46,669 nucleotides of DNA from Lachnospiraceae bacterium (GTDB lineage Bacteria; Bacillota; Clostridia; Lachnospirales; Lachnospiraceae). This document shows, in pieces, positions 7,478-23,077 of this stretch. Position numbers and translations under genes: made by a program. The notes under the pieces are model-generated. The model had not been told where the DNA came from. It did no database searches and worked only from the letters and a program-made list of their open reading frames with translations. Each line of letters opens with the position of its first letter. The first letter of the stretch is position 1. The stretch covers positions 1 to 46,669 of the forward strand of contig JALFHZ010000141.1 in NCBI GenBank assembly GCA_022776445.1, given 5' to 3'.

Positions 7478-10400
7478 CTATCGGAATGCTTCCACCAGCT
7501 CTTCCGCATCCAGAAAGCTCTGTTTCTTTAATTCTTCCACAAACCACTCATCCACGCCATCGACAGCATTCTTAAAGGATTCCACATCCAGTTCATCCTG
7601 TGCCGTGATCTTCACGCCATTCTTACTCATCCAGCGATTCATGATCTCATCATCACCGGCACGGTTGATGTAACGCTCATACTGCGTTGCCTTCTGACCG
7701 CACTCATCCACTACTGCCTGCTGCTCCGGAGTCAGGCTGTCGTAAAGCTCCTGATTGATACAGAAGAACAGACAGTCATAATTGGCATTCCACAGGGAAC
7801 AGTACGGCTGCACTTCCTGCACACTTGCTGCATCAATCGCCGGAAGCGGATTCTCCTGGCCTTCCACCGTCTTCTGCTGCAGCGCCGTATAGGTCTCAGA
7901 CCAGTTCATATTCGTCGCATCCGCACCCCAACGTTTGTAACACTCCATCAGCAGGTTGCTTCCTGCCACACGGATCTTCAGGTTCTTCATATCGTCCACA
8001 GACTTCACTTCACGCACGTTGTTGGTCAGCTGGCGGAAACCGTTCTCCGCGATACCCATGCAGTGCAGACCATATTCCGACAGAATCTCTTTCAGCTTTT
8101 CGCCGCCCTTGCCGTCCAGCTTCGCATCAGCATCTGCCACAGAATCAAACAGATATGGCAGCGACACCACATTAAACCTCGGATCAAATGCAGAGTAGAT
8201 CAGATTGCTGTGCATGGAGATCTGAATCGGGTCGCCATCCATCAAGGCCTGAATGCCTTCCGACTGATTGCCGTTGGTCAGCTGGTCTGCCGCGTAGACG
8301 TTCACCTTTACTTTACCTCCGGTCGCCTTCTCCATCAATTCGCCAAACTTACGGCCGCCTTCCGCCCAGGTACTGGTCTCCGTGGTGGAACAGGTAAAGT
8401 TCCAGGTCTGTTCTCTCCACTCCAGATCACTGTAGTCATCCACCGTACTGAACGCTGCAATTTTCGCATCATCCGCTCCGGCAGCCGCACCATTTCCGGA
8501 AGTACCTGCCGTCTCTGCAGCTTCCGGTGCCTCTGCGGTAAATGCCGCAATCAGCTCTGCCGCATCCGCATAGCCCTGATTCTCCAGCTCCGTCTGATAC
8601 CACTGGTCAATGCCATCCACTGCTGCCCGGAAGGAGTCCACATCCAGATCCGTATAAGCCGTGATGGTCACACCATTTTTCTCCTGCCAGCGGCTCATGA
8701 TTTCTTCATCGCCGGATCGGTTGATGTATCGCTCATACTGTGTTGCTTTCTGGCCGCATTCATCAATCACAGCCTGCTGCTCCGGAGTCAGCTTCTCATA
8801 AATCTCCCCGTTGATACAGAAGAACAGACAGTCATAATTGGCATTCCACAGGGAACAGTACGGCTGTACCTCCTGTACACTTGCCGCATCAATCGCCGGA
8901 AGCGGGTTCTCCTGGCCTTCCACCGTCTTCTGCTGCAGCGCCGTATAAGTCTCGGACCAGTTCATATTGGTTGCATCTGCGCCCCAGCGTTTGTAACATT
9001 CCATCAGCAGGTTGCTTCCTGCTACACGGATCTTCAGGTTCTTCATATCATCCACGGATTTGATTTCGCGCACGTTGTTGGTCAGCTGGCGGAAACCATT
9101 CTCTGCGATGCCCATGCAGTGCAGGCCATACTCGCTCAGAATTTCTTTCAGTTTCTCGCCTGCCGGACCATCCAGTTTTGCATCGGCATCCGCTACAGAA
9201 TCAAACAGATATGGCAGCGACACCACATTGAATCTCGGGTCAAATGCAGAGTAAATCAGATTGCTGTGCATGGAAATCTGTACCGGATCGCCGTCCATCA
9301 AAGCCTGAATGCCTTCGGACTGGTTGCCGTTGGTCAGCTGGTCTGCCGCATAGACATTAACCCTGATTTTGCCTCCGGTTGCCTTCTCAACCAGTTCCCC
9401 GAACTTGCGTCCGCCCTCTGCCCAGGTACTGGTCTCCGTGGTGGAACAGGTAAAGTTCCAGGTCTGCTCTTCCCAGCCCAGGTCACTGTGATCCTCCACT
9501 TCAAAGCTTCCGTAATTAATCGCTGCATCGGATGTAAAGGCTGCAATCAGCTGCTCTGCATCTTCATAATTCTGTTTTTCCAGTTCTTCCTGATACCACT
9601 GGTCAATTCCCTCAACTGCTTTTTTGAAGGAATCTACATCCAGATTTTCATAAGACGTAATGGTCACGCCGTTTTTCTCCTGCCAGCGGCTCATGATCTC
9701 CTCATCGCCGGCACGGTTGATATGACGCTCATATGCTACTGCCTTCTGTCCTGCCTCATCTACAACCGCCTGCTGTTCCGGAGTCAGACCGTCATACAGC
9801 TTCTGGTTGATGCAGAAGAACAGGCAGTCATAGTTGGCGTTCCACAGCGAACAGTATGGCTGTACTTCCTGTACACTTGCCGCATCGATTGCCGGAAGCG
9901 GATTCTCCTGGCCTTCCACGGTCTTCTGCTGCAGTGCCGTATAGGTCTCAGACCAGTTCATATTGGTCGCGTCTGCACCCCAACGCTTGTAACACTCCAT
10001 CAGCAGATTGCTGCCTGCCACACGGATCTTCAGGTTTTTCATATCATCCACGGATTTGATCTCACGTACGTTGTTGGTCAGCTGACGGAAACCATTTTCC
10101 GCGATACCCATGCAGTGCAGACCGTACTCGCTCAGGATGTCTTTCAGCATCTCTCCTGCCGGTCCATCCAGCTTCGCATCGGCATCCTCGACAGAATCAA
10201 ACAGATACGGCAGGGATACCACATTGAATCTCGGATCAAACGCAGAATAAATCAGGTTGCTGTGCATGGAAATCTGCACCGGATCGCCGTTCATCAGTGC
10301 CTGAATTCCTTCCGACTGATTGCCGTTGGTCAGCTGGTCTGCCGCGTAAACATTGACCTTCACCTTGCCGCCGGTGGCCTTTTCCATCAGCTCGCCGAAC

Positions 10401-11890
10401 TTGCGTCCGCCCTCTGCCCACGTACTGGTCTCCGTTGGGGAACAGGTGAAGTTCCAGGTCTGCTCTTCCCAGCCCAGACCAGAATAATCCCCGATCTCGT
10501 TCCATACCTCATCGGATGCGGCAGAACCCGCATTTTCAGAAGAATTCTGTCCGGAACCGGTCTGGACTGCGGCTGTACCGGTATAGGAACCTTCACCCGC
10601 CATTGCTTTGGGCAGGAACGTGGAGATGTCCGGAATATAGGTGATCACCAGAAGCACGACAACACAGGCAGTGATCATCGGAGCAACGGCTCTGGAAATC
10701 TTCGGAATGTCCACTTCCATTCCCTTTTTCAGCTTCACGGCAATCGCCACAAACAGGTTTACGCCAACCGGCGGTGTTACCTGACCGATCGCCAGGTTTA
10801 CAGTTGCAACCAGACCAAATGCAACCACATCGTATCCCAGCTGCTTACATACCGGAAGCATGATCGGGATAAAAATATACATGGCAGAGTTGGCATCAAT
10901 GAAGCATCCTGCAATCAGGAAAATCACATTGACAATAATCAGGAAAGTAAACTGATTATGTGCAATGCTTCCCAGCAGTTCGGATGCCGCCTGCGCGATA
11001 CCAAATTTGGTGCAGACGAAGGAGAACAGGGATGCGCATGCCACGATCAGCATGATGCCGCCCGTAGTCTTTCCGGAATCAATCAGGATATTCCACAGAT
11101 CCTTCACCGTAACCTCCCGATAAACAACCATACCAACAAACAGACCATACACCACAGATACCGCTGCCGCCTCGGTTGGAGTGAAGATACCGCCGTAGAT
11201 ACCGCCCAGAATGATCACCGGCATCAGGAGTCCCCAAAATGCTTCTTTAAATGCTGCCCAGCGCTCTGCCGCAGATGCTTTCTGCTGAGAGGACTGAATA
11301 TGGTTCTTTCTGGCTTCAATCATAACCACAATGACCAGAGCCGCACCCATCAGAATACCCGGTACAATACCTGCGGTAAACATATCCGCGATGGAAACGC
11401 CGGTAATGGATGCGTAAACGACAAACGCGATGCTCGGCGGAATGACGATTGCGATAGAGCTTGCCGTCGCCATCAGCGCAGCCGAGAACGGAGCAGAGAA
11501 ACCGCCCTGCTCAATCATGGCCGGGATCAGCACACTTCCCAGCGCCGCTACCGTCGCGGGACCGGAACCGGAGATCGCACCGAAAAAGCAGGCAACGATA
11601 ACGCACACGATTGCAATACCGCCTCTCCGGTGTCCGACACAGGTATTAACAAACTTGATCAGACGCTTGGAGATACCGGCCTTTGCCATAATATTGCCGG
11701 ACAATACGAAGAACGGAATTGCCAGCAGCAGGAATTTACTGATACCGGAATACATATTGGTTGCCACAATCGTCAGCGAAGTACCGGAATACAGGATTGC
11801 GCATACGGAGGACAATCCCAGGCAGATGCTGATCGGAATTCCCATAATCAGGAAAATGAAGAAAGAGATAAACAACACTGCACTGATCAT
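7478..11890 (-). CDS. TRAP transporter large permease DctM fused to three tandem DctP solute-binding domains
   Basis: A single uninterrupted 1470-residue frame. Residues 1-430 are a complete DctM (TRAP large permease): GIPISICLGLSS, the GSGPATVAALGSVLIPAM loop, TATASS-type and PPSIAFV motifs, GGIFTPTEAAAVSVVYGL, and a last helix at about 404-419. A Ser/Gly/Ala-rich linker (431-467) leads to three DctP-type binding domains at about 468-795, 800-1127 and 1152-1470. Each has TWNFTCSxTETSTWAEGG, NGNQSEGIQAL, SLPYLFDSV, the ligand-region stretch LKIRVAGSNLLMECY, VEGQENPLPA and LTPEQQAVVDE. TRAP systems use an ion gradient and normally a separate binding protein. Here all receptors are tethered, and no free DctP gene or signal peptide is present. 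ATGA overlap couples it to dctQ. Confidence 0.93.
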   Translation of the reverse strand: MISAVLFISFFIFLIMGIPISICLGLSSVCAILYSGTSLTIVATNMYSGISKFLLLAIPFFVLSGNIMAKAGISKRLIKFVNTCVGHRRGGIAIVCVIVACFFGAISGSGPATVAALGSVLIPAMIEQGGFSAPFSAALMATASSIAIVIPPSIAFVVYASITGVSIADMFTAGIVPGILMGAALVIVVMIEARKNHIQSSQQKASAAERWAAFKEAFWGLLMPVIILGGIYGGIFTPTEAAAVSVVYGLFVGMVVYREVTVKDLWNILIDSGKTTGGIMLIVACASLFSFVCTKFGIAQAASELLGSIAHNQFTFLIIVNVIFLIAGCFIDANSAMYIFIPIMLPVCKQLGYDVVAFGLVATVNLAIGQVTPPVGVNLFVAIAVKLKKGMEVDIPKISRAVAPMITACVVVLLVITYIPDISTFLPKAMAGEGSYTGTAAVQTGSGQNSSENAGSAASDEVWNEIGDYSGLGWEEQTWNFTCSPTETSTWAEGGRKFGELMEKATGGKVKVNVYAADQLTNGNQSEGIQALMNGDPVQISMHSNLIYSAFDPRFNVVSLPYLFDSVEDADAKLDGPAGEMLKDILSEYGLHCMGIAENGFRQLTNNVREIKSVDDMKNLKIRVAGSNLLMECYKRWGADATNMNWSETYTALQQKTVEGQENPLPAIDAASVQEVQPYCSLWNANYDCLFFCINQKLYDGLTPEQQAVVDEAGQKAVAYERHINRAGDEEIMSRWQEKNGVTITSYENLDVDSFKKAVEGIDQWYQEELEKQNYEDAEQLIAAFTSDAAINYGSFEVEDHSDLGWEEQTWNFTCSTTETSTWAEGGRKFGELVEKATGGKIRVNVYAADQLTNGNQSEGIQALMDGDPVQISMHSNLIYSAFDPRFNVVSLPYLFDSVADADAKLDGPAGEKLKEILSEYGLHCMGIAENGFRQLTNNVREIKSVDDMKNLKIRVAGSNLLMECYKRWGADATNMNWSETYTALQQKTVEGQENPLPAIDAASVQEVQPYCSLWNANYDCLFFCINGEIYEKLTPEQQAVIDECGQKATQYERYINRSGDEEIMSRWQEKNGVTITAYTDLDVDSFRAAVDGIDQWYQTELENQGYADAAELIAAFTAEAPEAAETAGTSGNGAAAGADDAKIAAFSTVDDYSDLEWREQTWNFTCSTTETSTWAEGGRKFGELMEKATGGKVKVNVYAADQLTNGNQSEGIQALMDGDPIQISMHSNLIYSAFDPRFNVVSLPYLFDSVADADAKLDGKGGEKLKEILSEYGLHCMGIAENGFRQLTNNVREVKSVDDMKNLKIRVAGSNLLMECYKRWGADATNMNWSETYTALQQKTVEGQENPLPAIDAASVQEVQPYCSLWNANYDCLFFCINQELYDSLTPEQQAVVDECGQKATQYERYINRAGDDEIMNRWMSKNGVKITAQDELDVESFKNAVDGVDEWFVEELKKQSFLDAEELVEAFR
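7481..10489 (-). repeat. Three tandem DctP-domain repeats within the TRAP gene
   Basis: The units occupy about 9506-10489, 8510-9493 and 7481-8437. The anchor tryptophan codon of each (TWNFTC) lies at 10454, 9458 and 8402, giving periods of 996 and 1056 bases. The extra length in the second interval is an Ala/Gly-rich linker. Amino acids of the central 200 residues are almost the same in all three while many third codon positions differ, so the copies are old enough to have drifted silently but are held alike at the protein level. Confidence 0.93.
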
Positions 11891-12381
11891 TTCACATCCT
11901 CCTTCTTATCCATACAGGTATCCAGAAAAAATTCGATAAAGTGCAGAATCATGCAGGCTGCACCGATCGGAACAAACGACCAGAAGATCCACTCCGGCCA
12001 GTTCAGAACGAACGTACGCTTTCCGTTCTCCAGCTGCGTGATTACTTTATCCATGCCATATTTAAACAGCACGGATGTAAAAAATACGCATAACACCGTA
12101 TTCAGAAACAATACCGGTTTACGAAGAGAAACCGGCAGACGATCCGTCACCAGAGTCAGATTGACCAGTTCGCCTTCTCTGCATGCCAGTGCGGCTGCAA
12201 TCAGCGTAATCAGGACGAATACGGCAACAACCAGTTCTTCCGTAAACGACCAGGACTGGTGAATGACTTTTCTGGAAAATACATTGCCGACCGTCAGCAC
12301 CAGAATGATGATGGTGGACGCTGCCAGCACCAGCTTTTCCAGCATGGTCAGCACATCCATCAGCTTTTTAAAAGCTCTCAT
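11887..12381 (-). CDS. dctQ: TRAP transporter small permease DctQ
   Basis: The 164-residue protein has four membrane helices (about 18-38, 48-68, 88-108, 128-150). It carries the DctQ features NVFSRKVIHQSWSFTEELVV between helices 1 and 2 and WIFWSFVPIGAACMILH near the end. DctQ pairs with DctM as the scaffold of the elevator-type transporter. Its last codons overlap the DctM start by four bases (ATGA), so translation is coupled. It is the first gene after the T-box leader, so T-box control covers the whole transporter. Confidence 0.93.
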   Translation of the reverse strand: MRAFKKLMDVLTMLEKLVLAASTIIILVLTVGNVFSRKVIHQSWSFTEELVVAVFVLITLIAAALACREGELVNLTLVTDRLPVSLRKPVLFLNTVLCVFFTSVLFKYGMDKVITQLENGKRTFVLNWPEWIFWSFVPIGAACMILHFIEFFLDTCMDKKEDVK

Positions 12382-12456
12382 AACACTTTTCCTCCTTGGA
12401 TCATTGGTTTTTGCGGCATGTGCATCCTTGCGGAGCGTTTTTTACTCTTTTAAAGT

Positions 12457-12736
12457 AAAAAAAACCGCCCCTGTCAATAGGGACGGATTCATCACACCGC
12501 AACCACCCTGTTTCTTTACTGAAACAAGTACGAACACAACGTACCAGCATACGTGGTTTCTATAACGGGAAACGCCCGTGGAAACCTAATCGCATGCGTT
12601 TTCGGCTTCCCTTCTCTGAGATGATCTTCGAAACAGTCCTGCTGCTGACTCACACCAGCCGTCAGCTCTCTGGAAACCGGTCTCTGTCTCTACTTATTCT
12701 CGTCACAGAATTTACACTTTTTCTTTTTAAAGCGCT
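12457..12736 (-). promoter_or_regulatory. T-box riboswitch, probably tRNA-Ile (AUC), controlling the TRAP transporter
   Basis: On the minus strand Stem I carries AGTAGAGACAG pairing with CTGTTT, and the distal AGAGAGC-TGAC...GTCAGC arm has the loop GGCTGGTGTGA. The specifier loop strand is GAAG-ATC-A (ATC at 12623-12625). After stem III comes the T-box sequence AGGGTGGTTGCGG (12497-12509). CCGTCCCT can pair with its AGGG and GCGG parts (antiterminator) or with AGGGGCGG to form the terminator (12465-12486), followed by TTTTTTTT. The UGGU tRNA-acceptor element predicts discriminator base A, which fits isoleucine tRNA. The ACC usually found after UGGN is altered here. Confidence 0.88.
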
Positions 12737-12742
12737 GAAGCC

Positions 12743-12771
12743 ATTTTACACCCCGAATTTCGGATTGTCAA
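12743..12771 (-). promoter_or_regulatory. SigA promoter of the T-box/TRAP transcript
   Basis: A perfect TTGACA (12766-12771), 17 bases, TAAAAT (12743-12748) on the minus strand, just upstream of T-box Stem I and 25 bases past the LysE stop codon. Confidence 0.85.
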
Positions 12772-12796: not shown

Positions 12797-13393
12797 CTAT
12801 CCCAAGATCCCAACCACCTTCGCTGCGCACCACACCAGCAGTCCTGCCATAATCACATTCATAACCTTATAATGCGCCCCGTAAAAACGTTTCAGAACAT
12901 TCCCGGCAAATGCCCAGATCAGATTGCCGATCGCTCCAAGCACCATGAGGTAAAACGCATATCCCAGCAGATACACCGGTTCCTGCACATAGGGCAGAAT
13001 AAACGCGGAAAACATCGTCAGGCCATAGATGATAATCTTTACATTCACCAGCTGCAAAAAAATCCCGGCTGCATAGGTCGGTTCCCGATCCGCATCCTTT
13101 TCCCCCGGCGGGAGCCGCCGCATGGTCTGATATGCCAGATAAAGCATATACACCGCACCGATATATTTCATCACAGGCGCAATCCCCGGAATCACATCTG
13201 ACAGAGTCCGGCACAGCAGACCGGACAACATCATCAGTGACAACGACCCGGTCCAGATCCCCGCCATAAATTTCATATTTTTTCGAATCCCGTATTTGCT
13301 TGCATTTGATAAAAGCAGAATGTTATTGGGTCCCGGTGACCAGACCGTCAGACATGCCGTCAACGTCATATCACAGAAAAAAGAAAATGGCAT
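12797..13393 (-). CDS. LysE/RhtB-family amino-acid exporter
   Basis: I choose ATG 13393 (AGGAGAGG upstream) over a longer frame to 13432 that runs into the promoter. The 198-residue protein has about six helices and the LysE signature SPGPNNILLLSNASKYGIRKN near residues 18-38, a GxxxG-rich second helix and a long LQLVNVKIIIYGLTMFSAF segment. Family members export amino acids such as lysine, threonine, homoserine or cysteine derivatives; the substrate here is unknown. It lies directly upstream of the T-box operon but has its own promoter. Confidence 0.88.
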   Translation of the reverse strand: MPFSFFCDMTLTACLTVWSPGPNNILLLSNASKYGIRKNMKFMAGIWTGSLSLMMLSGLLCRTLSDVIPGIAPVMKYIGAVYMLYLAYQTMRRLPPGEKDADREPTYAAGIFLQLVNVKIIIYGLTMFSAFILPYVQEPVYLLGYAFYLMVLGAIGNLIWAFAGNVLKRFYGAHYKVMNVIMAGLLVWCAAKVVGILG

Positions 13394-13430
13394 AATCGTT
13401 CCTCTCCTGATAAAATACATTTCTCCATCC

Positions 13431-13460
13431 ACTATAGCACGTGGAACGCGAAGAATGCAA
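13431..13460 (-). promoter_or_regulatory. Promoter of the lysE-family gene
   Basis: TTGCAT (13455-13460), 18 bases, TATAGT (13431-13436) on the minus strand. The -35 box abuts the T-tract of the ahpC terminator. Confidence 0.6.
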
Positions 13461-13520: not shown

Positions 13521-14084
13521 TTACAAAAGCCCTACAAGATCCAGACTCGGAGTCAGGGTCTCTGCTCCCGGCTGCCATCTGGCCGGGCAAACCTCATCGC
13601 CATGCTCATACACAAACTGACATGCCCGAAGTTTTCTGAGCAGTTCTTCAGCATTTCTTCCTACATTCCCTGCATTTATCTCATAAGCGACAATTCTGCC
13701 CTCCGGATTGACAATAAAGCTTCCGCGTTCAGCCATACCATCTGCTTCAATCAGCACATCAAAATCCTTTGACAATGCATGAGTCGGATCTGCAAGCATC
13801 GGATACTGAATCTTCCGAATGCGTTCTGACGCATCATGCCATGCCTTGTGCACAAAATGTGTATCGGTTGATACCGAATAAATCTCACATCCTGCTTCCC
13901 GGAACTCTTCATATTTGTCTGCCAAATCTTCCAATTCTGTTGGGCATACAAAGGTAAAATCTGCAGGATAAAAGAAGAACACACTCCAACGACCCAAAAT
14001 ATCCGACTTGCTTACTTCCTGAAAGGAATGATTGACAAAAGCCTGTACGGTAAAATCCTGAACTTCCTTATTTATTAATGACAC
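13521..14084 (-). CDS. ahpC: Alkyl hydroperoxide reductase subunit C (2-Cys peroxiredoxin)
   Basis: The 187-residue length is typical of AhpC. The peroxidatic cysteine is C47 in FTFVCPTE and the resolving cysteine is C166 in DEVCPARW; GSFIVNPEGRIVAYEI is also conserved. AhpC reduces H2O2 and organic hydroperoxides using electrons from AhpF or a thioredoxin-like partner. The start codon is GTG (14082-14084) with AAGGAGG seven bases upstream. Only 30 bases separate it from dhaM and no terminator lies between, so it is the last gene of the glycerol/dihydroxyacetone operon. A matching AhpF-N-like protein is encoded at 19218-19880. A full-length AhpF is not present. Confidence 0.96.
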   Translation of the reverse strand: MSLINKEVQDFTVQAFVNHSFQEVSKSDILGRWSVFFFYPADFTFVCPTELEDLADKYEEFREAGCEIYSVSTDTHFVHKAWHDASERIRKIQYPMLADPTHALSKDFDVLIEADGMAERGSFIVNPEGRIVAYEINAGNVGRNAEELLRKLRACQFVYEHGDEVCPARWQPGAETLTPSLDLVGLL

Positions 14085-14114
14085 AATAAAACCTCCTTGC
14101 TGTACAATCTGATT

Positions 14115-14504
14115 CTAATTCCCACTCAGTTTTCTCATGCCCCATACCGCCTCGAGATCTTGCAGAATCTCATCAAAGCCTTTCCCCCCGACAGCATCCA
14201 CAGTTGCCACAACAGCGCCTTCCACAAGCGGACAGTCAGCCATGGCAATCCTGCGATCCTCCATCATCTCGATCACCATCTCGGCAGTCATTACCGCACT
14301 GCCGAGATCCATCAGAATAATGACGCCTTCATCGGAATAGACTTCTTCAATGGCATTCTGAATTCGTTCAAAGCTTGTACCGAAGCTTCCATCCTCCAGT
14401 CCGCCCGCCGCTGCAATCTTCGCATCCGGCGCCATCATGGAAGTCAGTTCAATCACGCTCTTCGCGAGATTTTCACTATGCGATACAATCACAAGTCCTA
14501 CCAT
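14115..14504 (-). CDS. dhaM: PTS-dependent dihydroxyacetone kinase, phosphotransferase subunit DhaM
   Basis: The 129-residue protein is a single EIIA-mannose-type domain with the phosphorylated histidine in LVIVSHSENLAKSV (H9) and ILMDLGSAVMTAEMVIE downstream. It passes phosphate from HPr to the ADP bound on DhaL. It is the short, single-domain DhaM, unlike the three-domain form of Escherichia coli. It follows dhaL with a 27-base gap. Confidence 0.95.
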   Translation of the reverse strand: MVGLVIVSHSENLAKSVIELTSMMAPDAKIAAAGGLEDGSFGTSFERIQNAIEEVYSDEGVIILMDLGSAVMTAEMVIEMMEDRRIAMADCPLVEGAVVATVDAVGGKGFDEILQDLEAVWGMRKLSGN

Positions 14505-14531
14505 AGACTGCTCCTTTCTTCCGGGAAACGG

Positions 14532-15155
14532 TCACAGGCAATCTTTTACTGTTTCAAGCATAAAGGAGAACGAGGTTGCCCCCGGATCCTGATGCCCCAG
14601 TCCGCGCTCACCCACATAACTGGCACGTCCTTTTGTGGCCACCAGATCCTTTGTGTGCTCTGCTCCTGCCCATGAAGCCCTGCATCCTGCCTCCAGAACG
14701 GCTTTGGCATCTGCCCCCTGTGCAGCTGCCTCCTTCATCGCTGCCACTGCCGGAAGCATCGCATCCAGCATCGTCGCTTCCTCTGCTACAGCCTTTCCGC
14801 GCTGCATCACAGCTTCCACCGCCGTATCCATGCCTTTCAGAAAATCATCCATACCAATCTCTGTTTTTCCGTTCAACGCCATGCCCATCTTCATGTAAGC
14901 AGAGCCATAAAGCGGACCGGAGGCACCGCCTACCGTAGAAACCAGCGCCATTCCGGCAGTTTTCAGAATCGTACCGATATCCTTATCCTGTACAGTCGCA
15001 AGTTTTTCTGATACCGCTTTAAATCCTCTTGCCAGGTTAATACCATGGTCACTGTCTCCGATCGGCTGATCCAGTTCCGTCAGGTAATCCTTCTGTTCCT
15101 CGATCTTTTCTCCGATCTTTTGCAAGATAAAAATCGTCTTTTTATTGTCTGTCAT
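14532..15155 (-). CDS. dhaL: Dihydroxyacetone kinase subunit DhaL (ADP-binding)
   Basis: The 207-residue all-helical DhaL carries the Mg-ADP-binding aspartates in QPIGDSDHGINLARG (about residues 26-40), then GGASGPLYGSAYMKMG and RASYVGERGLGHQDPG near the end. It keeps ADP as a permanent cofactor, is rephosphorylated by DhaM and transfers phosphate to dihydroxyacetone held by DhaK. It lies 33 bases after dhaK in the same operon. Confidence 0.96.
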   Translation of the reverse strand: MTDNKKTIFILQKIGEKIEEQKDYLTELDQPIGDSDHGINLARGFKAVSEKLATVQDKDIGTILKTAGMALVSTVGGASGPLYGSAYMKMGMALNGKTEIGMDDFLKGMDTAVEAVMQRGKAVAEEATMLDAMLPAVAAMKEAAAQGADAKAVLEAGCRASWAGAEHTKDLVATKGRASYVGERGLGHQDPGATSFSFMLETVKDCL

Positions 15156-15188
15156 TTTCGTGGTCCTCTTTTCCGAATCTATATGCCG

Positions 15189-16178
15189 TTATTCTTTCCA
15201 GGCCGGCGTATCTGCCTTTGCATCCAGCAGTTCCTTCATCTGATCATCCAGTCTCAGCAGAGAAATGGAAAAGCCCTGCATTTCAATCGAAGTCATATAT
15301 TCTCCAACCATCGTACGGTATACACGGATACCTTTCTCCGCCAGAATATCTGCTACATGATTGTTGATAATAAACAGTTCCATCAGAGGTGTTGCACCGG
15401 AACCATTGATCAGAACTGCCACTTCACTGCCGGAGTAATCGATATCTGCCAGAATTTTGTCCATCAGAAGATCCACAACCTCATCGGCAGGTCTCATAGC
15501 CTCTCTGTGGGTTCCAGGCTCTCCATGAATTCCGATGCCTACCTCCATCTCGTCATCACTCAGTTCAAAGCCCGGTTTACCGGCTGCCGGTACGGTACAT
15601 GGTGCAATTGCAGCACCCATTGTACGCACATTGTCAATCACCTTCTGAGCTACAGCCTGCACTTCATCCAGATCTGCTCCCGTCTCAGCGAGCGCACCGG
15701 CAATCTTATGAACAAAGACTGTACCTGCCACACCTCTGCGTCCTACCGTATAAAGGCTTCCGTCTACCGCAACATCATCATTGGTCACTACATGTTTCAC
15801 CGTAATGCCTTCCATCTCAGCCATCTCTGCAGCCATCTCAAAGTTCATGACGTCACCGGTGTAGTTCTTGACAACCATCAGAACGCCCTTATCGGTCGCA
15901 ATCGCTTTAATTCCCTCGTATATCTGATCCGGTGTCGGAGACGTAAATACTGCACCTGCCACTGCGGCATCCAGCATACCTTCGCCTACAAAACCGCCGT
16001 GTGCAGGCTCATGTCCGCTTCCGCCTCCGCTGATCAGTGCTACTTTCCCTTCTTTTTTCTCAGCACGCACCACGACATTGCCGCAATCCAGTTTTTTCAA
16101 ATGTTTTGGATAAGCTTTCAACATACCCTGAATCATCTGGTTCTCTACCTGATCAACCGCATTAATAAACTTTTTCAT
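15189..16178 (-). CDS. dhaK: Dihydroxyacetone kinase subunit DhaK
   Basis: From ATG 16178 the protein is 329 residues and starts MKKFINAVDQVENQMIQG as in known DhaK proteins; a longer frame reaches 16205. Key parts are SGGGSGHEPAHGGFVGEGML (substrate loop), VKNYTGDVMNFEMA, DDVAVDG and GIGIHGEPGTHRE, which holds the histidine that binds dihydroxyacetone covalently. The late NGSGATPLMELFI segment is also conserved. It makes dihydroxyacetone phosphate with DhaL and DhaM. No glycerol dehydrogenase lies in the window, so dihydroxyacetone must come from elsewhere. Confidence 0.96.
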   Translation of the reverse strand: MKKFINAVDQVENQMIQGMLKAYPKHLKKLDCGNVVVRAEKKEGKVALISGGGSGHEPAHGGFVGEGMLDAAVAGAVFTSPTPDQIYEGIKAIATDKGVLMVVKNYTGDVMNFEMAAEMAEMEGITVKHVVTNDDVAVDGSLYTVGRRGVAGTVFVHKIAGALAETGADLDEVQAVAQKVIDNVRTMGAAIAPCTVPAAGKPGFELSDDEMEVGIGIHGEPGTHREAMRPADEVVDLLMDKILADIDYSGSEVAVLINGSGATPLMELFIINNHVADILAEKGIRVYRTMVGEYMTSIEMQGFSISLLRLDDQMKELLDAKADTPAWKE

Positions 16179-16226
16179 TCCGTAAACCATCCTTTCCTTT
16201 TCCACGTTTTCAGATTCCCGGTTCGC

Positions 16227-16430
16227 TTATTTTTCATCTCCCAGACAGTTCATATCGTCCAGAGCGCAGGTCTTATCCTCTTCATCTGCCAGGCAGTTCA
16301 TATCATTCAGACCGCAGCTTTTTACATCCTCATCCTCCAGACAGTTCATGTCATTCAGGCCGCAGCTCCTGTCATCCTCACTGATTCCATTCAGATTGCC
16401 CCAGCCGGCTGCTTTTTTCTTATCTTCCAT
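16227..16430 (-). CDS. Small acidic protein with three CX6C repeats
   Basis: I do not recognise this 67-residue protein. A lysine-rich start (MEDKKKAAGWGN) is followed by three copies of a 16-residue unit, [ST]-C-[GA]-L-[ND]-D-M-N-C-L plus an acidic spacer. The cysteine pairs are C23/C30, C39/C46 and C55/C62. It has no signal peptide or membrane helix. GAGG lies about seven bases before ATG 16430, and it sits between glpF and dhaK in the same direction. Exact periodicity and the position in a metabolic operon support a real gene. Possible roles: metal or redox-switch protein, or a repeat-core modified peptide (no modifying enzyme nearby). Confidence 0.75.
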   Translation of the reverse strand: MEDKKKAAGWGNLNGISEDDRSCGLNDMNCLEDEDVKSCGLNDMNCLADEEDKTCALDDMNCLGDEK

Positions 16431-16475
16431 CTGTTTTCCTCACTTTCTGTCTCTGACTATTCCCTGTTATAAAGC

Positions 16476-16523
16476 GAAGCCTGACAAACAAACGTATAGA
16501 AGTATACGGGATTGCCAGGCTTC
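16476..16523. repeat. Nested inverted repeat between glpF and the small-peptide gene
   Basis: The outer arms are 16476-16487 and 16512-16523 (12 positions, one mismatch) and the inner arms are 16493-16498 and 16503-16508 (CGTATA/TATACG). No T-tract follows on the minus strand, so it is more likely an mRNA processing or stability structure, or a weak attenuator, than a plain terminator. Confidence 0.65.
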
Positions 16524-16602
16524 TCACTCATGCACGTATATTAAATTTTGTCAGTTTTCTGACATTCCATACCTACTGCAATCGCTTGTTCCTGACGTTT
16601 TC

Positions 16603-17313
16603 CTACCACGGAATCGCGCCGTACAGCAGAACTGCAATCACTGCACCAATAACCGGTCCCAGAATAACTACCGGTGCATAGCCCCAGTTAGAATCACCTT
16701 TGCCTTTAATCGGAAGAACCGAATGTGCAATACGCGGTCCCAGGTCACGAGCCGGGTTCAGAGCATACCCGGTCAGACCGCCAAGAGACATACCGATGGA
16801 AACGATGATGCCGAATACAAGGAATTTCTCAACGCCCGGTGCACAGCCTGTCACCTGACCGATACCCTTGATTGCAAATACCAGCACGAAAGTACCAACT
16901 ACTTCACTTAAAATATTTAACGGCATATTAGGCACGGACGGACCGGTGGAGAACACACCAAGTTTTGTCCCCGGATTATCCGTTGCATCAAACTGATCCT
17001 TGAACAGAATGTAAACCAGGCAAGCGCCTACAAATGCACCGGCAAACTGTGAAACGATGTATCCGGGAACCATTCCCCATCCGATACTGCCGTCCACTGC
17101 AAGTGCAATGGTCAGTGCCGGATTAAAGTGTGCACCGGAAGCTGCGCCGAAAATAAATGCCGGAACCATAACCGCAAGACCCCATGCAAATGTAATCTGA
17201 ATCGAACCTGCACCTTTCATACCCGATTTATTTAAAGTTACGTTTGCTACTACACCATCACCTAAGAGAATCAGAAGCATAGTACCTAAAAATTCTGCTA
17301 TATATGGCAACAT
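16603..17313 (-). CDS. glpF: Glycerol facilitator (MIP/aquaglyceroporin)
   Basis: The 236-residue membrane protein has six helices and the two half-helix NPA motifs of the aquaporin fold (HFNPALTIAL at about 62-71 and GYALNPARDLGPR at about 185-197). The Asp after the second NPAR and the adjacent Gly-rich loops fit glyceroporins rather than strict water channels. It lets glycerol diffuse in, trapped by the glycerol kinase encoded 84 bases upstream. Confidence 0.95.
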   Translation of the reverse strand: MLPYIAEFLGTMLLILLGDGVVANVTLNKSGMKGAGSIQITFAWGLAVMVPAFIFGAASGAHFNPALTIALAVDGSIGWGMVPGYIVSQFAGAFVGACLVYILFKDQFDATDNPGTKLGVFSTGPSVPNMPLNILSEVVGTFVLVFAIKGIGQVTGCAPGVEKFLVFGIIVSIGMSLGGLTGYALNPARDLGPRIAHSVLPIKGKGDSNWGYAPVVILGPVIGAVIAVLLYGAIPW

Positions 17314-17397
17314 ATAAAATCCCCCTGTTCTTTCATTCCTATACGTTCACAGTCTGCGGGTTACATGGTTTGATGCCTTTTTATCCTGTACATTGAC

Positions 17398-18897
<1,500 letters not shown>

Positions 18898-18980
18898 CTA
18901 CCTCCTTAAAAAATATAGTTTTTGTTTCTATACATCACCGGATCCCCCTCCGGTGCACTGTATCCCCATAAGATACCTTT

Positions 18981-19064
18981 AAAACAAAAAGAGCCCAACA
19001 AACACTAACACACCTGCTATGAATGTCACGCTCCTGTCTTTTATATTTCTATGCTACCGTCGAT
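18981..19064 (-). promoter_or_regulatory. GlpP-type antiterminator/terminator leader of glpK
   Basis: A hairpin closed by GAGC and GCTC (18991-19033) is followed by TTTTTG on the minus strand, 40 bases into the leader. Its loop carries CATTCATAGCAG and GTTAGTGTTTGTTG. The glpP leader at 23939-23996 has the same framework (AGGAG, CATTCA, CAG, TGTT, GCTCTTTTT). In Bacillus, GlpP binds such leader repeats with glycerol-3-phosphate to allow readthrough. Confidence 0.7.
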
Positions 19065-19070
19065 GGATTT

Positions 19071-19099
19071 AGTATAGCATATTGCATATAGTTTTGCAA
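19071..19099 (-). promoter_or_regulatory. SigA promoter of the glpK-glpF-dhaKLM-ahpC operon
   Basis: TTGCAA (19094-19099), 17 bases, TATACT (19071-19076) on the minus strand. The stretch around the -10 box (GCAATATGCTATACT) is nearly repeated in the glpP promoter. The T-rich DNA from 19100 to 19217 shows nothing else. Confidence 0.8.
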
Positions 19100-19217
19100 T
19101 CATTTTTTATTTTTTTCACCGTTTTGACCATTGCATCTTTTTTAGCAAAAATCAAATCCGTTATTTTGCGCATATTTTTTCAACATTTTTATATTATTTT
19201 GTCGATTTTGTTTGTAT

Positions 19218-19880
19218 TCATTTTGCATCCCGGAACAGTTGAATCAGGTCTTCGATCGTACGCGGACCCACAAAGGTATCCCGATCATTGATGACCACCA
19301 GAGGTACCCGTTCAATCCGATACCGTTCCACCAGATCCGGATACAGATTGGCATCGTACATCTCCGCTGTAATACAGGAATTCATCATGGCAATCCTCTG
19401 GCATGCAATGACCACCCCGGGGCAATGATGGCAGGCCAGCGACACGCAGATCTTCACATGTACCGGACGCGCCAGCTTTGCAATCTTCTTCTCCGCACCT
19501 TTCGGCAATTCCTGACCCGGTCCCGCAAGATTATAGATTCCAATCACAAAAGAATTGATCTCTTTTCCTCCCGGGACACCATGAAAAGCAGCTCCCCGGT
19601 ATCTGCCATCCATAAAAAATCCCGTCACAGGCAGATGCTCCGTATCCATCTCCAGATCCCCTGCTTCTCCCGGAGCATACAATTCCAGATTGATCAGGGA
19701 ACTTAACTGAGCCACAAGTACCAGAAAAGAAGCCATCTCCCTGGATTTCGCTTCCTCCAGATCAACAACCGCTTTCAGAGTGACCTCCCTTGTCAGCCTG
19801 GCAAATACTCCCTGTATCGTTTCTTTTGTTTTTTCATCCAGCAGAGCACTTTCTGCAGGAATCTTGCTCAAATCTATCAT
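19218..19880 (-). CDS. Thioredoxin-fold protein resembling the AhpF N-terminal domain
   Basis: From ATG 19880 (AGGAGG upstream) the product has 220 residues. It shows two thioredoxin-like halves, as in the N-terminal domain of AhpF: the first lacks a redox motif, the second holds C150-H-H-C153 in SLACHHCPGVVIA, followed by a cis-proline-type VPLVVINDRDTFVG loop. No FAD or NAD domain follows. It probably passes electrons to a peroxidase. It lies between a terminator and the glpK promoter in the glycerol cluster, and AhpC ends that cluster, so AhpC is the obvious partner. Partner assignment is inference. Confidence 0.85.
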   Translation of the reverse strand: MIDLSKIPAESALLDEKTKETIQGVFARLTREVTLKAVVDLEEAKSREMASFLVLVAQLSSLINLELYAPGEAGDLEMDTEHLPVTGFFMDGRYRGAAFHGVPGGKEINSFVIGIYNLAGPGQELPKGAEKKIAKLARPVHVKICVSLACHHCPGVVIACQRIAMMNSCITAEMYDANLYPDLVERYRIERVPLVVINDRDTFVGPRTIEDLIQLFRDAK

Positions 19881-19905
19881 AAGCCCTCCTGTTCCCCGTA
19901 ATGGC

Positions 19906-19946
19906 AAAAAGACCGGAACGGTTCTCTGTCAGGGAATCGCTCCGGT
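19906..19946 (-). terminator. Terminator after the DUF1667 gene
   Basis: ACCGGAGCG pairs with CGTTCCGGT and is followed by CTTTTTG on the minus strand. It is close in sequence to the ahpC terminator at 13461-13504. Confidence 0.85.
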
Positions 19947-19996
19947 CCTCCTTTCTGCTTAAAGACGGCTTGTTCGCCGCTCTGAACGGTTACAAT

Positions 19997-20356
19997 TTAT
20001 TCTACATTGCTGCTGGCAATAATATCCACGCCTGTTCCTGCTACGTTCTCCACAATCACATCGCCGATATGAACCGGAGCTTTCACAGTAATGCCTTTCA
20101 GCGCCTTTACGCACTCAAAGATCTTGCTCTTCGGAATATCATTACGGGTTTTCACTGCTACCGTAACGTCACTTCCTCCTTCTACCATAACCGTGCTGGT
20201 TACAATACGCGTAGGATTCGTCACTTCTTTTCTTGCGTAGTCGTCGCCTCTCTTACAGGTGTTTCCTTCTACCTTCACCACTTCAGCACCTTCCATGGTT
20301 ACAGTCAGCGGGCAGCCCAGAGGACAGCCAATACAGATTAATTCTCTTTTATCCAT
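19997..20356 (-). CDS. DUF1667 domain protein of the glycerol-3-phosphate oxidation operon
   Basis: The 119-residue protein starts with a cysteine motif, CIGCPLGCPLTV (C8, C11, C15), and has a further cysteine in NTCKRGDDYARKE, a pattern that fits an Fe-S or other metal site and is typical of DUF1667. It is regularly found beside the two FAD proteins encoded upstream, as here: its ATG lies directly at the stop of the preceding gene. It probably is the small electron-transfer subunit of the complex. Biochemical role unproven. Confidence 0.9.
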   Translation of the reverse strand: MDKRELICIGCPLGCPLTVTMEGAEVVKVEGNTCKRGDDYARKEVTNPTRIVTSTVMVEGGSDVTVAVKTRNDIPKSKIFECVKALKGITVKAPVHIGDVIVENVAGTGVDIIASSNVE

Positions 20357-20358
20357 CT

Positions 20359-21624
20359 TTATGCCTCCTCAATCTTCACGGTAATCGTCTTCAGATCCGG
20401 ATAGGTCAAAAGTTTTGCCTTTTCCAGCTTGATTTCTTCCATCTCACCTGGTGCAACAACCGGGCGTTTCCGATGAATCACTCTCTCATCATCAAAGTAT
20501 ACGCTGATATAGCAGTTCTTATAAACACCGCCGACACGGAATCTTACGGTCAGTTTATCCTCCATCTGATCCGGACGGATCGTGGACGGAACCGTATAGC
20601 GCACTCCTTCGATCGGGTTCATTTTGATCACCTGGCCAGCAGCCTCTTTGCGCTCACCTTTCACATAAGCTGCCGCATTCTTGCCTGCCGCACCTGCTTC
20701 TTCCGATACGAAGTCAACCAGGTCATGTACGTGAAGAACATTGCCGCATGCAAATACGCCTTCAATATTGGTCTCCAGACTCTCATTCACAATCGGTCCG
20801 GATGTAACAGGACTCATCTCAACGCCTGCTTCTCTGGAAAGCTCATTCTCTGGAATCAGACCGCAGGAGAGCAGCAGCGTATCACAATCATAGTCTTCCT
20901 CGGTACCCGGAATCGGTTTGCCCTTGGAGTCAACCTGCGCAATCGTAACACCGGTTACACGTTCTTTGCCGCGGATATCCACAACGGTATGGCTCAGCTT
21001 TAACGGAATGCCATAGTCGTCCAGACACTGAACGATGTTTCTCTTCAGGCCGCCGGAATAAGGCATCAGCTCTGCCACAACCTTAACCTTAGCGCCTTCA
21101 AAAGTCATACGGCGCGCCATGATCAGTCCGATATCGCCGGAACCCAGGATAACAACCTCGCGTCCCGGAAGATAACCTTCACGGTTAACCAGACGCTGTG
21201 CTGTACCTGCTGAAAAGATACCTGCCGGACGATATCCCGGAATATTCAGCGCACCTCTTGCACGCTCACGGCAACCCATAGCCAGAATCACTGCCTTTGC
21301 CTGAATCTGGAACATGCCATCTTCCCGGTTCATAGCGGTAACTACTTTTTCATGGCTGATGTCCATAACCATGGTATGAAGCTTATATTCAATACCCAGT
21401 TCTTTTACCTGAGCAATAAATCTTGCTGCGTACTCCGGTCCGGTCAACTCCTCCTTGAACGTGTGAAGACCAAAACCATTGTGGATACACTGATTCAAAA
21501 TACCACCAAGCTCCTTATCTCTCTCAAGAATCAGGATACTGTCTACTCCGCTGTTCTTTGCAGATACTGCAGCTGCCAGTCCGGCAGGACCGCCGCCGAC
21601 GATTACGATATCATATGCTTTCAT
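20359..21624 (-). CDS. FAD/NAD(P)-dependent oxidoreductase, partner of glycerol-3-phosphate dehydrogenase
   Basis: I place the start at ATG 21624 (421 residues); an upstream extension to 21705 would overlap the preceding gene. The N terminus DIVIVGGGPAGLAAAVSAK binds FAD and a second Rossmann motif, EVVILGSGDIGLIMARRM, binds NAD(P)H. EGVFACGNVLHVHDLVDFVS is the second FAD contact, and a roughly 90-residue C-terminal domain follows. It resembles the NADH-oxidase-type subunit paired with GlpA-like proteins in Clostridia. It lies 16 bases after the GlpA-like gene and is followed at once by DUF1667, so the three likely form one enzyme that sends electrons from glycerol-3-phosphate to NAD+ or another carrier. 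Confidence 0.9.
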   Translation of the reverse strand: MKAYDIVIVGGGPAGLAAAVSAKNSGVDSILILERDKELGGILNQCIHNGFGLHTFKEELTGPEYAARFIAQVKELGIEYKLHTMVMDISHEKVVTAMNREDGMFQIQAKAVILAMGCRERARGALNIPGYRPAGIFSAGTAQRLVNREGYLPGREVVILGSGDIGLIMARRMTFEGAKVKVVAELMPYSGGLKRNIVQCLDDYGIPLKLSHTVVDIRGKERVTGVTIAQVDSKGKPIPGTEEDYDCDTLLLSCGLIPENELSREAGVEMSPVTSGPIVNESLETNIEGVFACGNVLHVHDLVDFVSEEAGAAGKNAAAYVKGERKEAAGQVIKMNPIEGVRYTVPSTIRPDQMEDKLTVRFRVGGVYKNCYISVYFDDERVIHRKRPVVAPGEMEEIKLEKAKLLTYPDLKTITVKIEEA

Positions 21625-21640
21625 TCTGGACGCCCCCTTC

Positions 21641-23077
21641 TTATATACTATCCTTGTTGGTACCAACTGCAATTCTGGATTCTCCGCCACTCTTGGTGAT
21701 CTCACGCATATCCAGATTCAGTTCGCGGGACAGAATCTCCATGGTACGCGGGGAGCAGAAGCCAGCCTGACAGCGTCCCATACCGGCGCGGGTTCTCCGC
21801 TTAACACCATCCAGGGATTTTGCCCCAAGCGGACGATGGATCGCATCCAGGATTTCTCCCTCTGTAACCATCTCACAGCGGCAGATGATATTGCCGTATG
21901 CCGGGTTCTCTTTGATCAGGGCATTGCGCTCCTCCAGAGAAAGGTTCTCCGGATTCAGAACACCCTTACGGGTTCCAACGAAGTCCGGATTCTCTTCCGG
22001 ATTCAGAATACCTTTTACAATATCAGCAACCATAACACCAATGGCCGGGCTGCTGGTCAGTCCAGGAGACTCGATACCTGCACAGTCAACAAATCCCGGA
22101 GCTTCCTCCAGCTCACCGATGTGGAATTCATGAGATGCCTCATGCGCACGCAGTCCTGCGAAAGAAGTAATCACCTGTCTCAACGGAACATTCTTAACGG
22201 TGTTTGCACATTTCGTAATTGCCTCATCCAGACCTGCACGGGTCGTTGCAGTTCCTTCTTTATCTTCAATATCAATTGCGGTCGGTCCGACAAGAAGGTT
22301 GCCGTGTACGGTCGGAGCTACCAGAATACCTTTGCCGTATTTGGTCGGCAGAGCAAAAATGGTCTTGGAAACGTGTTTGCCGGCAGACTTGTCCAGCAGG
22401 CAATAGTCACCGCGTCGCGGAACAATCTTCATTTCCTTATCGCTGACCATGTTGTGAAGTTCATCCGCATATACACCTGCTGCGTTCACAACCACTTTGG
22501 TTTCATAATCACCATTGTCAGTCTTTACTTTCCAGCCGCCTTCGATCTTCTCGAAGCCGGTCACTTTCGTATTAAACCGGAACTCAACACCGTTTACGTT
22601 TGCATTTTCAGCTAAAGCAATGTTCAGATTGAACGGGCATACAATTCCTGCAGTCGGAGCATACAGAGCGGCCACCGCAGAATCAGAGATATTCGGTTCC
22701 ATCTCTACCAGTTCATCACGCTCAATGATACGCAGGCCTTCCACACCGTTCTTGACACCGCGCTCATAAAGTGCTTCCAGACCCGGACGGGTTTCCGGAT
22801 CGGTACATACTACCAGCGATCCGTTCTGAATAAACGCAAAATCCAGATCCTTAGCCAGCTGCGGCATCATCTTATTGCCCAGCACATTCAGTTTCGCCAT
22901 CAGCGATCCTTCTGCCGCATCATATCCGGCATGTACAATCGCACTGTTCGCTTTCGAGGTTCCGCAGCATACGTCTTCCTCTTTTTCCAAAACACAAGCT
23001 TTCACTTTATAACGGGAAAGCTCTCTGGCAGATGCTGCACCAGCAACGCCAGCTCCAATAATGATTACATCATACAT
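21641..23077 (-). CDS. Glycerol-3-phosphate dehydrogenase (GlpA-like FAD protein with 2Fe-2S domain)
   Basis: The 478-residue protein begins YDVIIIGAGVAGAASARELS (FAD site) and has KANSAIVHAGYDA, the DAO-family core with VNAAGVYADELHNMV, and GLRAHEAS and ESPGLTSSPAIGVMV late in that domain. The C-terminal BFD-like [2Fe-2S] domain has cysteines C399, C401, C436 and C441 (CRCEMVTE, GRCQAGFC). It should oxidise glycerol-3-phosphate to dihydroxyacetone phosphate. Context (glpP upstream, FAD partner and DUF1667 downstream) supports glycerol use. It is called glpA, glpO or lhgO-like in databases, so I withhold a symbol. Confidence 0.92.
   Translation of the reverse strand: MYDVIIIGAGVAGAASARELSRYKVKACVLEKEEDVCCGTSKANSAIVHAGYDAAEGSLMAKLNVLGNKMMPQLAKDLDFAFIQNGSLVVCTDPETRPGLEALYERGVKNGVEGLRIIERDELVEMEPNISDSAVAALYAPTAGIVCPFNLNIALAENANVNGVEFRFNTKVTGFEKIEGGWKVKTDNGDYETKVVVNAAGVYADELHNMVSDKEMKIVPRRGDYCLLDKSAGKHVSKTIFALPTKYGKGILVAPTVHGNLLVGPTAIDIEDKEGTATTRAGLDEAITKCANTVKNVPLRQVITSFAGLRAHEASHEFHIGELEEAPGFVDCAGIESPGLTSSPAIGVMVADIVKGILNPEENPDFVGTRKGVLNPENLSLEERNALIKENPAYGNIICRCEMVTEGEILDAIHRPLGAKSLDGVKRRTRAGMGRCQAGFCSPRTMEILSRELNLDMREITKSGGESRIAVGTNKDSI

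Follow-up and report, generated by a model that had tools for sequence, protein, structure and literature searches.

Ahead of a TRAP transporter operon, the window (the whole stretch of DNA that was analysed, 46,669 nucleotides from a Lachnospiraceae bacterium) carries a T-box leader, and at the level of sequence there is good support for a T-box of the tRNA-Ile class on this transporter. In our judgement this T-box probably senses tRNA-Ile and controls the importer by antitermination, the cargo most likely being a carboxylate that would relieve isoleucine shortage.

The Rfam T-box model RF00230 matched positions 12715-12476 on the minus strand with 112.6 bits (cut-off 93, E 3.2e-24) over its full length (model 1-219 of 219), and it was the sole Rfam match at the gathering threshold across the 46,669-base window. 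The initial annotation, which gave no strand, had described a T-box with Stem I, an AUC specifier and UGGU and had proposed a search with this model; the full-length match above the cut-off bears out that description. The elements of the leader were located as follows.

12743..12771, minus strand: promoter-like site TTGACA-17-TAAAAT (11/12 matches; one found compared to a mean of 0.6 in shuffles)
12476..12715, minus strand: T-box leader with Stem I, Stem II region, Stem III and antiterminator (RF00230 over the full model length; covariation in relatives)
12623..12625, minus strand: specifier AUC (Ile) in GAA-G-AUC-A (Rfam alignment; invariant over a 30-row alignment)
12502..12505, minus strand: UGGU, complementary to the tRNA 3' end ACCA with discriminator A (sequence reading)
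12479..12509, minus strand: antiterminator, AGGG...CCCU plus an upper CGG/CCG helix (Rfam match, covariation)
12457..12486, minus strand: intrinsic terminator, 8-bp stem plus T8 (one found compared to a mean of 0.4 in shuffles)

From the promoter-like site, the transcript is expected to start at approximately 12736, which agrees with the end at 12736 given by the initial annotation. The terminator stem CCGTCCCTATTGACAGGGGCGG was found at 12486-12465 and is followed by T8, the last T being position 12457, where that annotation began. Stem I with the specifier codon and the conserved distal motifs was present in the window leader, and the UGGN bulge sits in an antiterminator that is mutually exclusive with the terminator. 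The competition between terminator and antiterminator that had been proposed was found in the shared segment 12486-12479, which forms the 3' arm of the antiterminator and the 5' arm of the terminator and pairs either upstream or downstream. Single-sequence folding of the leader parts was close to that of shuffles (z -1.39, -0.88 and -0.95), so the case for the leader rests on the covariance score and on covariation.

Covariation was analysed in 27 leaders (the window and 26 loci, with L021 and L032 left out) and 48 pairs in alignment A1. This alignment places L018 and L050 wrongly in the antiterminator columns, and its pairs for Stem III and the antiterminator were assigned manually on the basis of the window. 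Pairing was found in 91.8% of the cells, and 24 of the 48 pairs had changes on both sides. The covariation score was 0.338 compared to 0.198 in shuffles, somewhat favoured both by the partly window-derived structure and by the relatedness of the leaders; the count of double-change pairs is firmer. None of 500 shuffles reached any of five measures, and pairing fell from 91.8% to 38-49% when the partners were slid. These findings show that the base pairs of the leader are kept by compensatory change in relatives.

The specifier bulge, GAAGAUCA, permits three frames, and if it were read as GAU (Asp) or UCA (Ser) the signal would be other than isoleucine. Under the first-choice rule of TBDB, the codon occupies positions 2-4 counted from the bulge's 3' end (PMC7778990), and the 3' side of the bulge, GAA-G-AUC-A, accordingly gives AUC (Ile). 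The covariance-model alignment also placed AUC, and no other codon, in the Rfam codon columns, which are filled by UUC and ACC in this genome's pheS and thrS leaders, respectively (names taken from a reading of their translations). A total of 12 T-boxes was found in this genome. Its ileS leader (L010) carries GAAGATCA, identical to the window; the ileS call was made with NCBIfam TIGR00392 on a partial protein, whose 404.9 bits do not reach the cut-off set for the full length. The ileS gene of L010 lies in two frames, of which the first stops after 123 codons and the second carries the protein on, owing either to a frameshift or to an assembly error.

Among 28 related leaders, ATC stood at the specifier place in 28/28, preceded by G, T, A or C and followed by A or C. 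These leaders were picked by their Stem I core and antiterminator motifs, the codon not being a criterion; the specifier pattern then demanded ATC, and any leader without it would have been printed. In MAFFT alignment A2 (30 rows: the window, its own ileS leader and the 28 related leaders) the three codon columns were invariant, GAA was altered in 3 of the 28 leaders (L018, L023 and L050), and no conservation of the GAU or UCA frames was found among the related leaders. The constancy of ATC while its flanking bases vary disfavours the Asp and Ser frames. Several T-boxes of the same genome do place the codon directly after GAA, and the discriminator of tRNA-Asp is G, which UGGU could meet through a U-G wobble. 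Wobble at the discriminator pairing is allowed in the TBDB scheme (PMC7778990). With AUC unchanged in 30/30 Stem I rows, the genome's own ileS leader included, and with the Rfam columns aligned as in the pheS and thrS leaders, reading in another frame is strongly disfavoured and in our view barely credible. No tRNA-Ile was seen among 29 tRNA matches in the draft genome, 22 of which were put through ARAGORN, nor in the examined part of a complete relative, for which 30 of 58 matches were fetched and 14 loci put through ARAGORN.

In the mechanism that we propose for an isoleucine signal, the RNA would start near 12736 and the AUC of Stem I would read the anticodon GAU of tRNA-Ile. The 3' end of uncharged tRNA-Ile would pair with UGGU and hold the antiterminator, so that the terminator at 12486-12465 would not be formed and dctQ-dctMPPP would be made. 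When tRNA-Ile is charged, the terminator would form and transcription would stop. Induction of the transporter by uncharged tRNA-Ile, as had been predicted at the outset, is what a T-box with an AUC specifier before a TRAP operon would lead one to expect, and it is from these parts that we infer tRNA dependence.

The next genes downstream of the leader were dctQ and a DctM-DctP fusion, in agreement with the initial placement of the T-box in front of a TRAP transporter.

12391..12397, minus strand: ribosome-binding site of dctQ, AAGGAGG (sequence reading)
11887..12381, minus strand: dctQ, small TRAP membrane subunit, 164 aa (Pfam PF04290, E 9e-32)
7478..11890, minus strand: DctM-DctP-DctP-DctP fusion, 1470 aa, with a 4-base overlap with dctQ (Pfam PF06808 once, PF03480 three times)
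10616..11890, minus strand: DctM domain, residues 1-425 (Pfam)
9506..10465, minus strand: DctP domain 1, from residue 476, after a linker of approximately 50 residues (Pfam; domain comparison)
8516..9469, minus strand: DctP domain 2, from residue 808, 89.8% identical to domain 1 (Pfam; domain comparison)
7481..8413, minus strand: DctP domain 3, from residue 1160, 88.2% identical to domain 1 and 88.5% to domain 2 (Pfam; domain comparison)

The matches to NCBIfam TIGR00786 (DctM) and TIGR00787 (DctP) were over their cut-offs, and DctQ was matched by Pfam only, with no NCBIfam match. The AlphaFold2 model of DctP domain 1 (window 9530-10459) had a pLDDT of 92.9. Small residues were abundant in the DctP linkers, and DNA identity among the three copies was 84.7, 82.4 and 84.6%. 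The fusion of permease and binding protein in three copies is the most unusual part of the operon; the initial annotation mentioned DctP domains and did not describe the fusion. An assembly artefact was considered and rejected. A 1464-aa protein on another public contig (P0003) was 96.5% identical from end to end with the same three copies, which makes it unlikely that the layout is an assembly accident; relatives with 2, 3 and 4 copies were found, and the copies differ from one another. Elsewhere, a 1118-aa protein with two DctP copies was 96.4% identical.

Gram-positive binding proteins usually carry a membrane anchor, and in this product fusion to DctM would take its place. We infer an importer of the ion-driven type, with the binding protein tethered in three copies on the outer face of the permease. 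DctM has been described with 12 helices and a periplasmic N-terminus (PMC5812351), an arrangement that would leave the DctM C-terminus and the DctP domains outside. By analogy with GlnPQ, tethering three almost identical domains would make more capture sites available locally.

A pattern-based DctQ scan of a species-genome collection, with a reach limited to close relatives, gave 41 related loci. Permease and binding protein were in one frame, as DctM-(DctP)1-4, in 36 of the 41, these being complete at that gene. L028 also has the fused frame, truncated where the locus ends; in L021 the sequence breaks off within DctM, and in L044, L052 and L053 DctM and DctP are separate genes. One DctP copy was found in 11 loci, two in 21, three in 4 and four in 1 (n=37: the 36 complete fused loci plus L044; L033, with 2 copies, is interrupted), and close relatives seem to differ in copy number. 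As a general rule for the copies, concerted evolution was rejected, the best match of a domain being a sister domain of the same locus in only 24 of 61 cases, a count that takes in two separate L052 proteins. One locus, L049, on a contig binned as Treponemataceae, had DctQ (68% identical) and a DctM-DctP fusion, with no T-box reported in the 380 bases upstream; it reflects either transfer or mis-binning.

A leader with an ATC specifier was found ahead of dctQ in 28 of the 41 relatives by motif and reading. The Rfam model was run on 12 of the 28 and reported a T-box in 11, L027 falling below the gathering score. Among the 13 loci without an intact leader, which include three Roseburia loci, 11 were scanned with Rfam (L052 and L053 were left out) and no T-box was reported at the TRAP genes. 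That no intact T-box was seen in 13/41 relatives indicates that the transporter can work without one. On the DctM tree (window plus 40 loci, hence 41 rows, without L021; deep forks weakly supported), 6 changes sufficed for the T-box label, and none of 500 shuffles was as low (mean 11.3). We read this as a T-box that may have been present early and was then lost several times, a history for which the tree is no proof.

Traces of such loss were visible. In L019, the leader lies approximately 280 to 70 bases upstream of dctQ (start 8001), and by reading it has lost Stem I and kept antiterminator-like and terminator sequences; it is probably a natural uncoupled T-box. Only apparent leader fragments were read in L030 and L045, at whose TRAP genes no T-box was reported. 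This decay within the clade is the reason to consider that the window leader might itself be a relic, deaf to tRNA. However, its elements are all intact, at 112.6 bits, and compensatory changes occur in relatives, and we regard a relic as very improbable.

For the wider survey, 150 genomes were drawn evenly from the family, the window's own included, and 40 had some DctQ match. From these, 30 loci were fetched and 20 were scanned (L119-L138), with a view of at most 1.5 kb upstream of dctQ (414 bases in L122). A T-box ahead of TRAP genes was found in 3 of the 20: the clade members L120 and L121, and the distant locus L123/L148. No T-box was found in the scanned upstream stretch of another clade member, L119. 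In L123/L148, DctQ, DctM and DctP were 37%, 67% and 53% identical, respectively, and a DctM-DctP fusion of 807 aa was present. Its T-box reached 68.3 bits, below the gathering score of 93, with AUC in the codon columns (GGAU-AUC-G). L123 was the only one of the 17 non-clade TRAP loci (L122-L138) with a T-box, so the pairing is not generic.

The cargo was approached through the binding domains and the genes around the operon. The carboxylate-binding Arg/Arg/Asn was retained in DctP, with R125 and R146 invariant and N186 conserved in at least 90%, as mapped by alignment onto residues named in PMC11668362. In a single-sequence search the sugar-acid binder 7BBR ranked first. In the fold search 4XEQ and 4PF8 came first; 4P8B, a TRAP binding protein of Ralstonia eutropha on which the idea of acetolactate as cargo leans, was at rank 21 in Foldseek and 8 in VIA-align. 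We take the ligand of 4P8B to be 2-acetolactate. This compound is given as a TRAP ligand in PMC5812351, and according to PMC11668362 the majority of co-purified TRAP ligands are possibly not the native ones. Among the solved binding proteins, those nearest to DctP were ligand-free or bind varied acids, namely sugar acids, pantoate/erythronate and 2-acetolactate. For DctM, the nearest NCBIfam equivalog was the 2,3-diketo-L-gulonate permease YiaN, at 253.5 of a cut-off of 800.

Counted from the dctQ start, ileS follows at a distance of 5.3 kb in L018, 7.9 kb in L046 and 8.0 kb in L050, L018 and L050 being close relatives, and an Ile T-box of its own was read for the ileS of L018. In L025, the genes ilvBH, which encode acetolactate synthase, are divergent from the TRAP operon and follow a T-box of their own (L025:7122-7378, minus strand, 112 bits, specifier read as GUA, Val), and both T-boxes share one intergenic stretch. 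As ilvC was present in 39 of the 41 genomes searched, a precursor acid could be used. The neighbourhoods of the standard TRAP relatives L052 and L053 held no metabolic clue.

BrnQ is the standard branched-chain amino-acid carrier. It was over the cut-off in 7 of 40 genomes, in one as broken pieces, and since the window's own genome is among them the TRAP system is not the sole candidate route here. The presence of BrnQ did not separate genomes with and without the T-box, which was present in 5 of the 7 genomes over the cut-off.

Upstream of the T-box promoter lies an exporter gene.

12797..13432, minus strand: LysE-family amino-acid exporter (Pfam PF01810, E 4.5e-16)

A LysE gene adjoins the TRAP genes in 21/41 loci, or in 21/35 of the loci with more than 1.1 kb of sequence after the TRAP genes. 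With 45 LysE matches in 40 genomes, approximately one per genome, chance would place about 0.2 in these stretches (estimated from 45 genes and 16 kb of approximately 3.4 Mb); as the loci are related, the 21 neighbours cannot be counted as independent of one another. The LysE gene of L015 and L035 shares the strand of the TRAP gene and begins 10-11 bases behind it; it would be induced together with that gene. In L022 and L038, a hairpin-like stretch was read between the two genes. The nearest NCBIfam model to LysE was a cysteine/O-acetylserine exporter, below the cut-off. LysE exporters usually lower amino-acid levels, and such a neighbour sits oddly with a response to isoleucine starvation. 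Further along the window (13521-21705, minus strand) are genes for a peroxiredoxin, EIIA-man, Dak2 and Dak1 (dihydroxyacetone kinase), a MIP channel, an FGGY-family sugar kinase and an FAD/NAD oxidoreductase, which together look like a glycerol utilisation cluster.

A second carrier gene was found behind T-boxes. Among 14 cstA (peptide/pyruvate carrier) loci scanned, the gene stood behind a T-box in 7 (L159, L160, L162, L163, L164, L165 and L172); L165 is the same place as L003:1501-1778 in the window's own genome, where the nearest NCBIfam model is CstA, below the cut-off. The specifiers were read as AUC (Ile) in 7/7, and AUC fills the Rfam codon columns in 5; for L164 and L165 it follows from the 2-4-from-3'-end rule only, and the Rfam columns would hold AAU and UUA, respectively. 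In the same genome, a molybdopterin oxidoreductase gene stands behind another T-box (L007:1501-1755), the specifier of which was read as UGG (Trp); it is an unexpected target whose nearest models are formate dehydrogenase alpha and thiosulfate reductase, below the cut-off on a partial protein.

The ileS (3 loci), ilvBH (1 locus) and LysE (21 loci) neighbours, together with the cstA T-boxes, fit a role in isoleucine supply, and the cargo of the importer likely relieves isoleucine shortage, as far as leader and neighbourhood can tell. That cargo may well be a branched-chain 2-oxo or 2-hydroxy acid from the isoleucine/valine route, a view that we hold at slightly less than even confidence. Import of isoleucine or another branched-chain amino acid itself is conceivable and rather doubtful.

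The T-box could also work as proposed on a transporter whose cargo, for example a sugar acid, is unrelated to isoleucine, the leader being a duplicated ileS leader kept as a general signal of amino-acid starvation. An origin of this kind would suit the loci in which ileS lies downstream of the TRAP genes, and the 13/41 relatives in which no intact T-box was seen; the resemblance of DctP to sugar-acid and pantoate/erythronate binders (PMC11668362) and of DctM to YiaN, far below the cut-off as it is, also points that way. Yet a single specifier change can switch the specificity of a T-box (Grundy and others, via Wels 2008, PMC2494555), and AUC was unchanged in 28/28 leaders. Moreover, the pairing recurs in the distant TRAP locus L123, and duplication of an ileS leader does not explain ilvBH beside the TRAP operon in L025. 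We consider an unrelated cargo unlikely.

If, as we prefer, the cargo does serve isoleucine supply, a fuller scheme can be drawn, which as a whole is speculative and improbable. A TRAP importer with 1-4 tethered binding copies would bring in an acetolactate-type branched 2-oxo/2-hydroxy acid released by other gut microbes and would pair with LysE in an exchange of acid in for amino acid out, and uncharged tRNA-Ile would switch all of this together with ileS and the CstA pyruvate carrier.

The substrates of TRAP transporters are difficult to predict from their sequences, and here the T-box offers a direct hint at the cargo that can be put to the test. Should the importer take up a branched precursor acid, gut Lachnospiraceae (several Blautia species, Oliverpabstia, Fusicatenibacter and relatives) would scavenge intermediates of amino-acid pathways under a switch set by tRNA charging. 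The DctM-(DctP)n fusion also offers a ready system in which to study the effects of tethering and copy number in a secondary transporter.

T-boxes and TRAP systems are each well known. Neither the T-box/TRAP pairing nor a DctM-DctP fusion was recognisable among the matches listed in the open-licence literature; TBDB, with 23,535 entries, may include some of these leaders. The pairing, its recurrence in a distant TRAP, an Ile specifier that stays constant over 28 loci and the DctM-(DctP)n fusion did not turn up in the literature searched. The window leader is like an Ile-class transcriptional T-box (RF00230) in its Stem I, AUC specifier, UGGN and antiterminator/terminator switch, and its specifier loop is identical to that of the ileS leader of its own genome. 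It differs from known T-boxes in its target, a TRAP transporter: seven families of T-box-controlled transporters (MFS, APC, NSS, DAACS, LIVCS, NhaC and ABC) are named in the accessible portion of Wels 2008 (PMC2494555), with no TRAP among them.

Compared to DctP-type TRAP systems (TC 2.A.56), DctQ, DctM and DctP are all present and recognised by Pfam. In contrast to the usual layout with a separate extracytoplasmic binding protein, which is not a defining feature of the class, DctP is here fused to the DctM C-terminus in 1 to 4 copies. The TRAP fusions described are Q-M (PMC5812351) and, more rarely, Q-P (PMC8276074), and M-P is unmentioned in the available parts of these papers. The Ralstonia eutropha protein 4P8B is 26% identical and, unlike the domains found here, a separate protein. 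Binding domains are likewise joined to the membrane part in the ABC importers GlnPQ and OpuA, although these belong to an unrelated, ATP-driven class of transporter. GlnPQ of Gram-positive bacteria has two tandem binding domains (PMC8025302), which differ in specificity, whereas the three DctP domains of the window are 88-90% identical.
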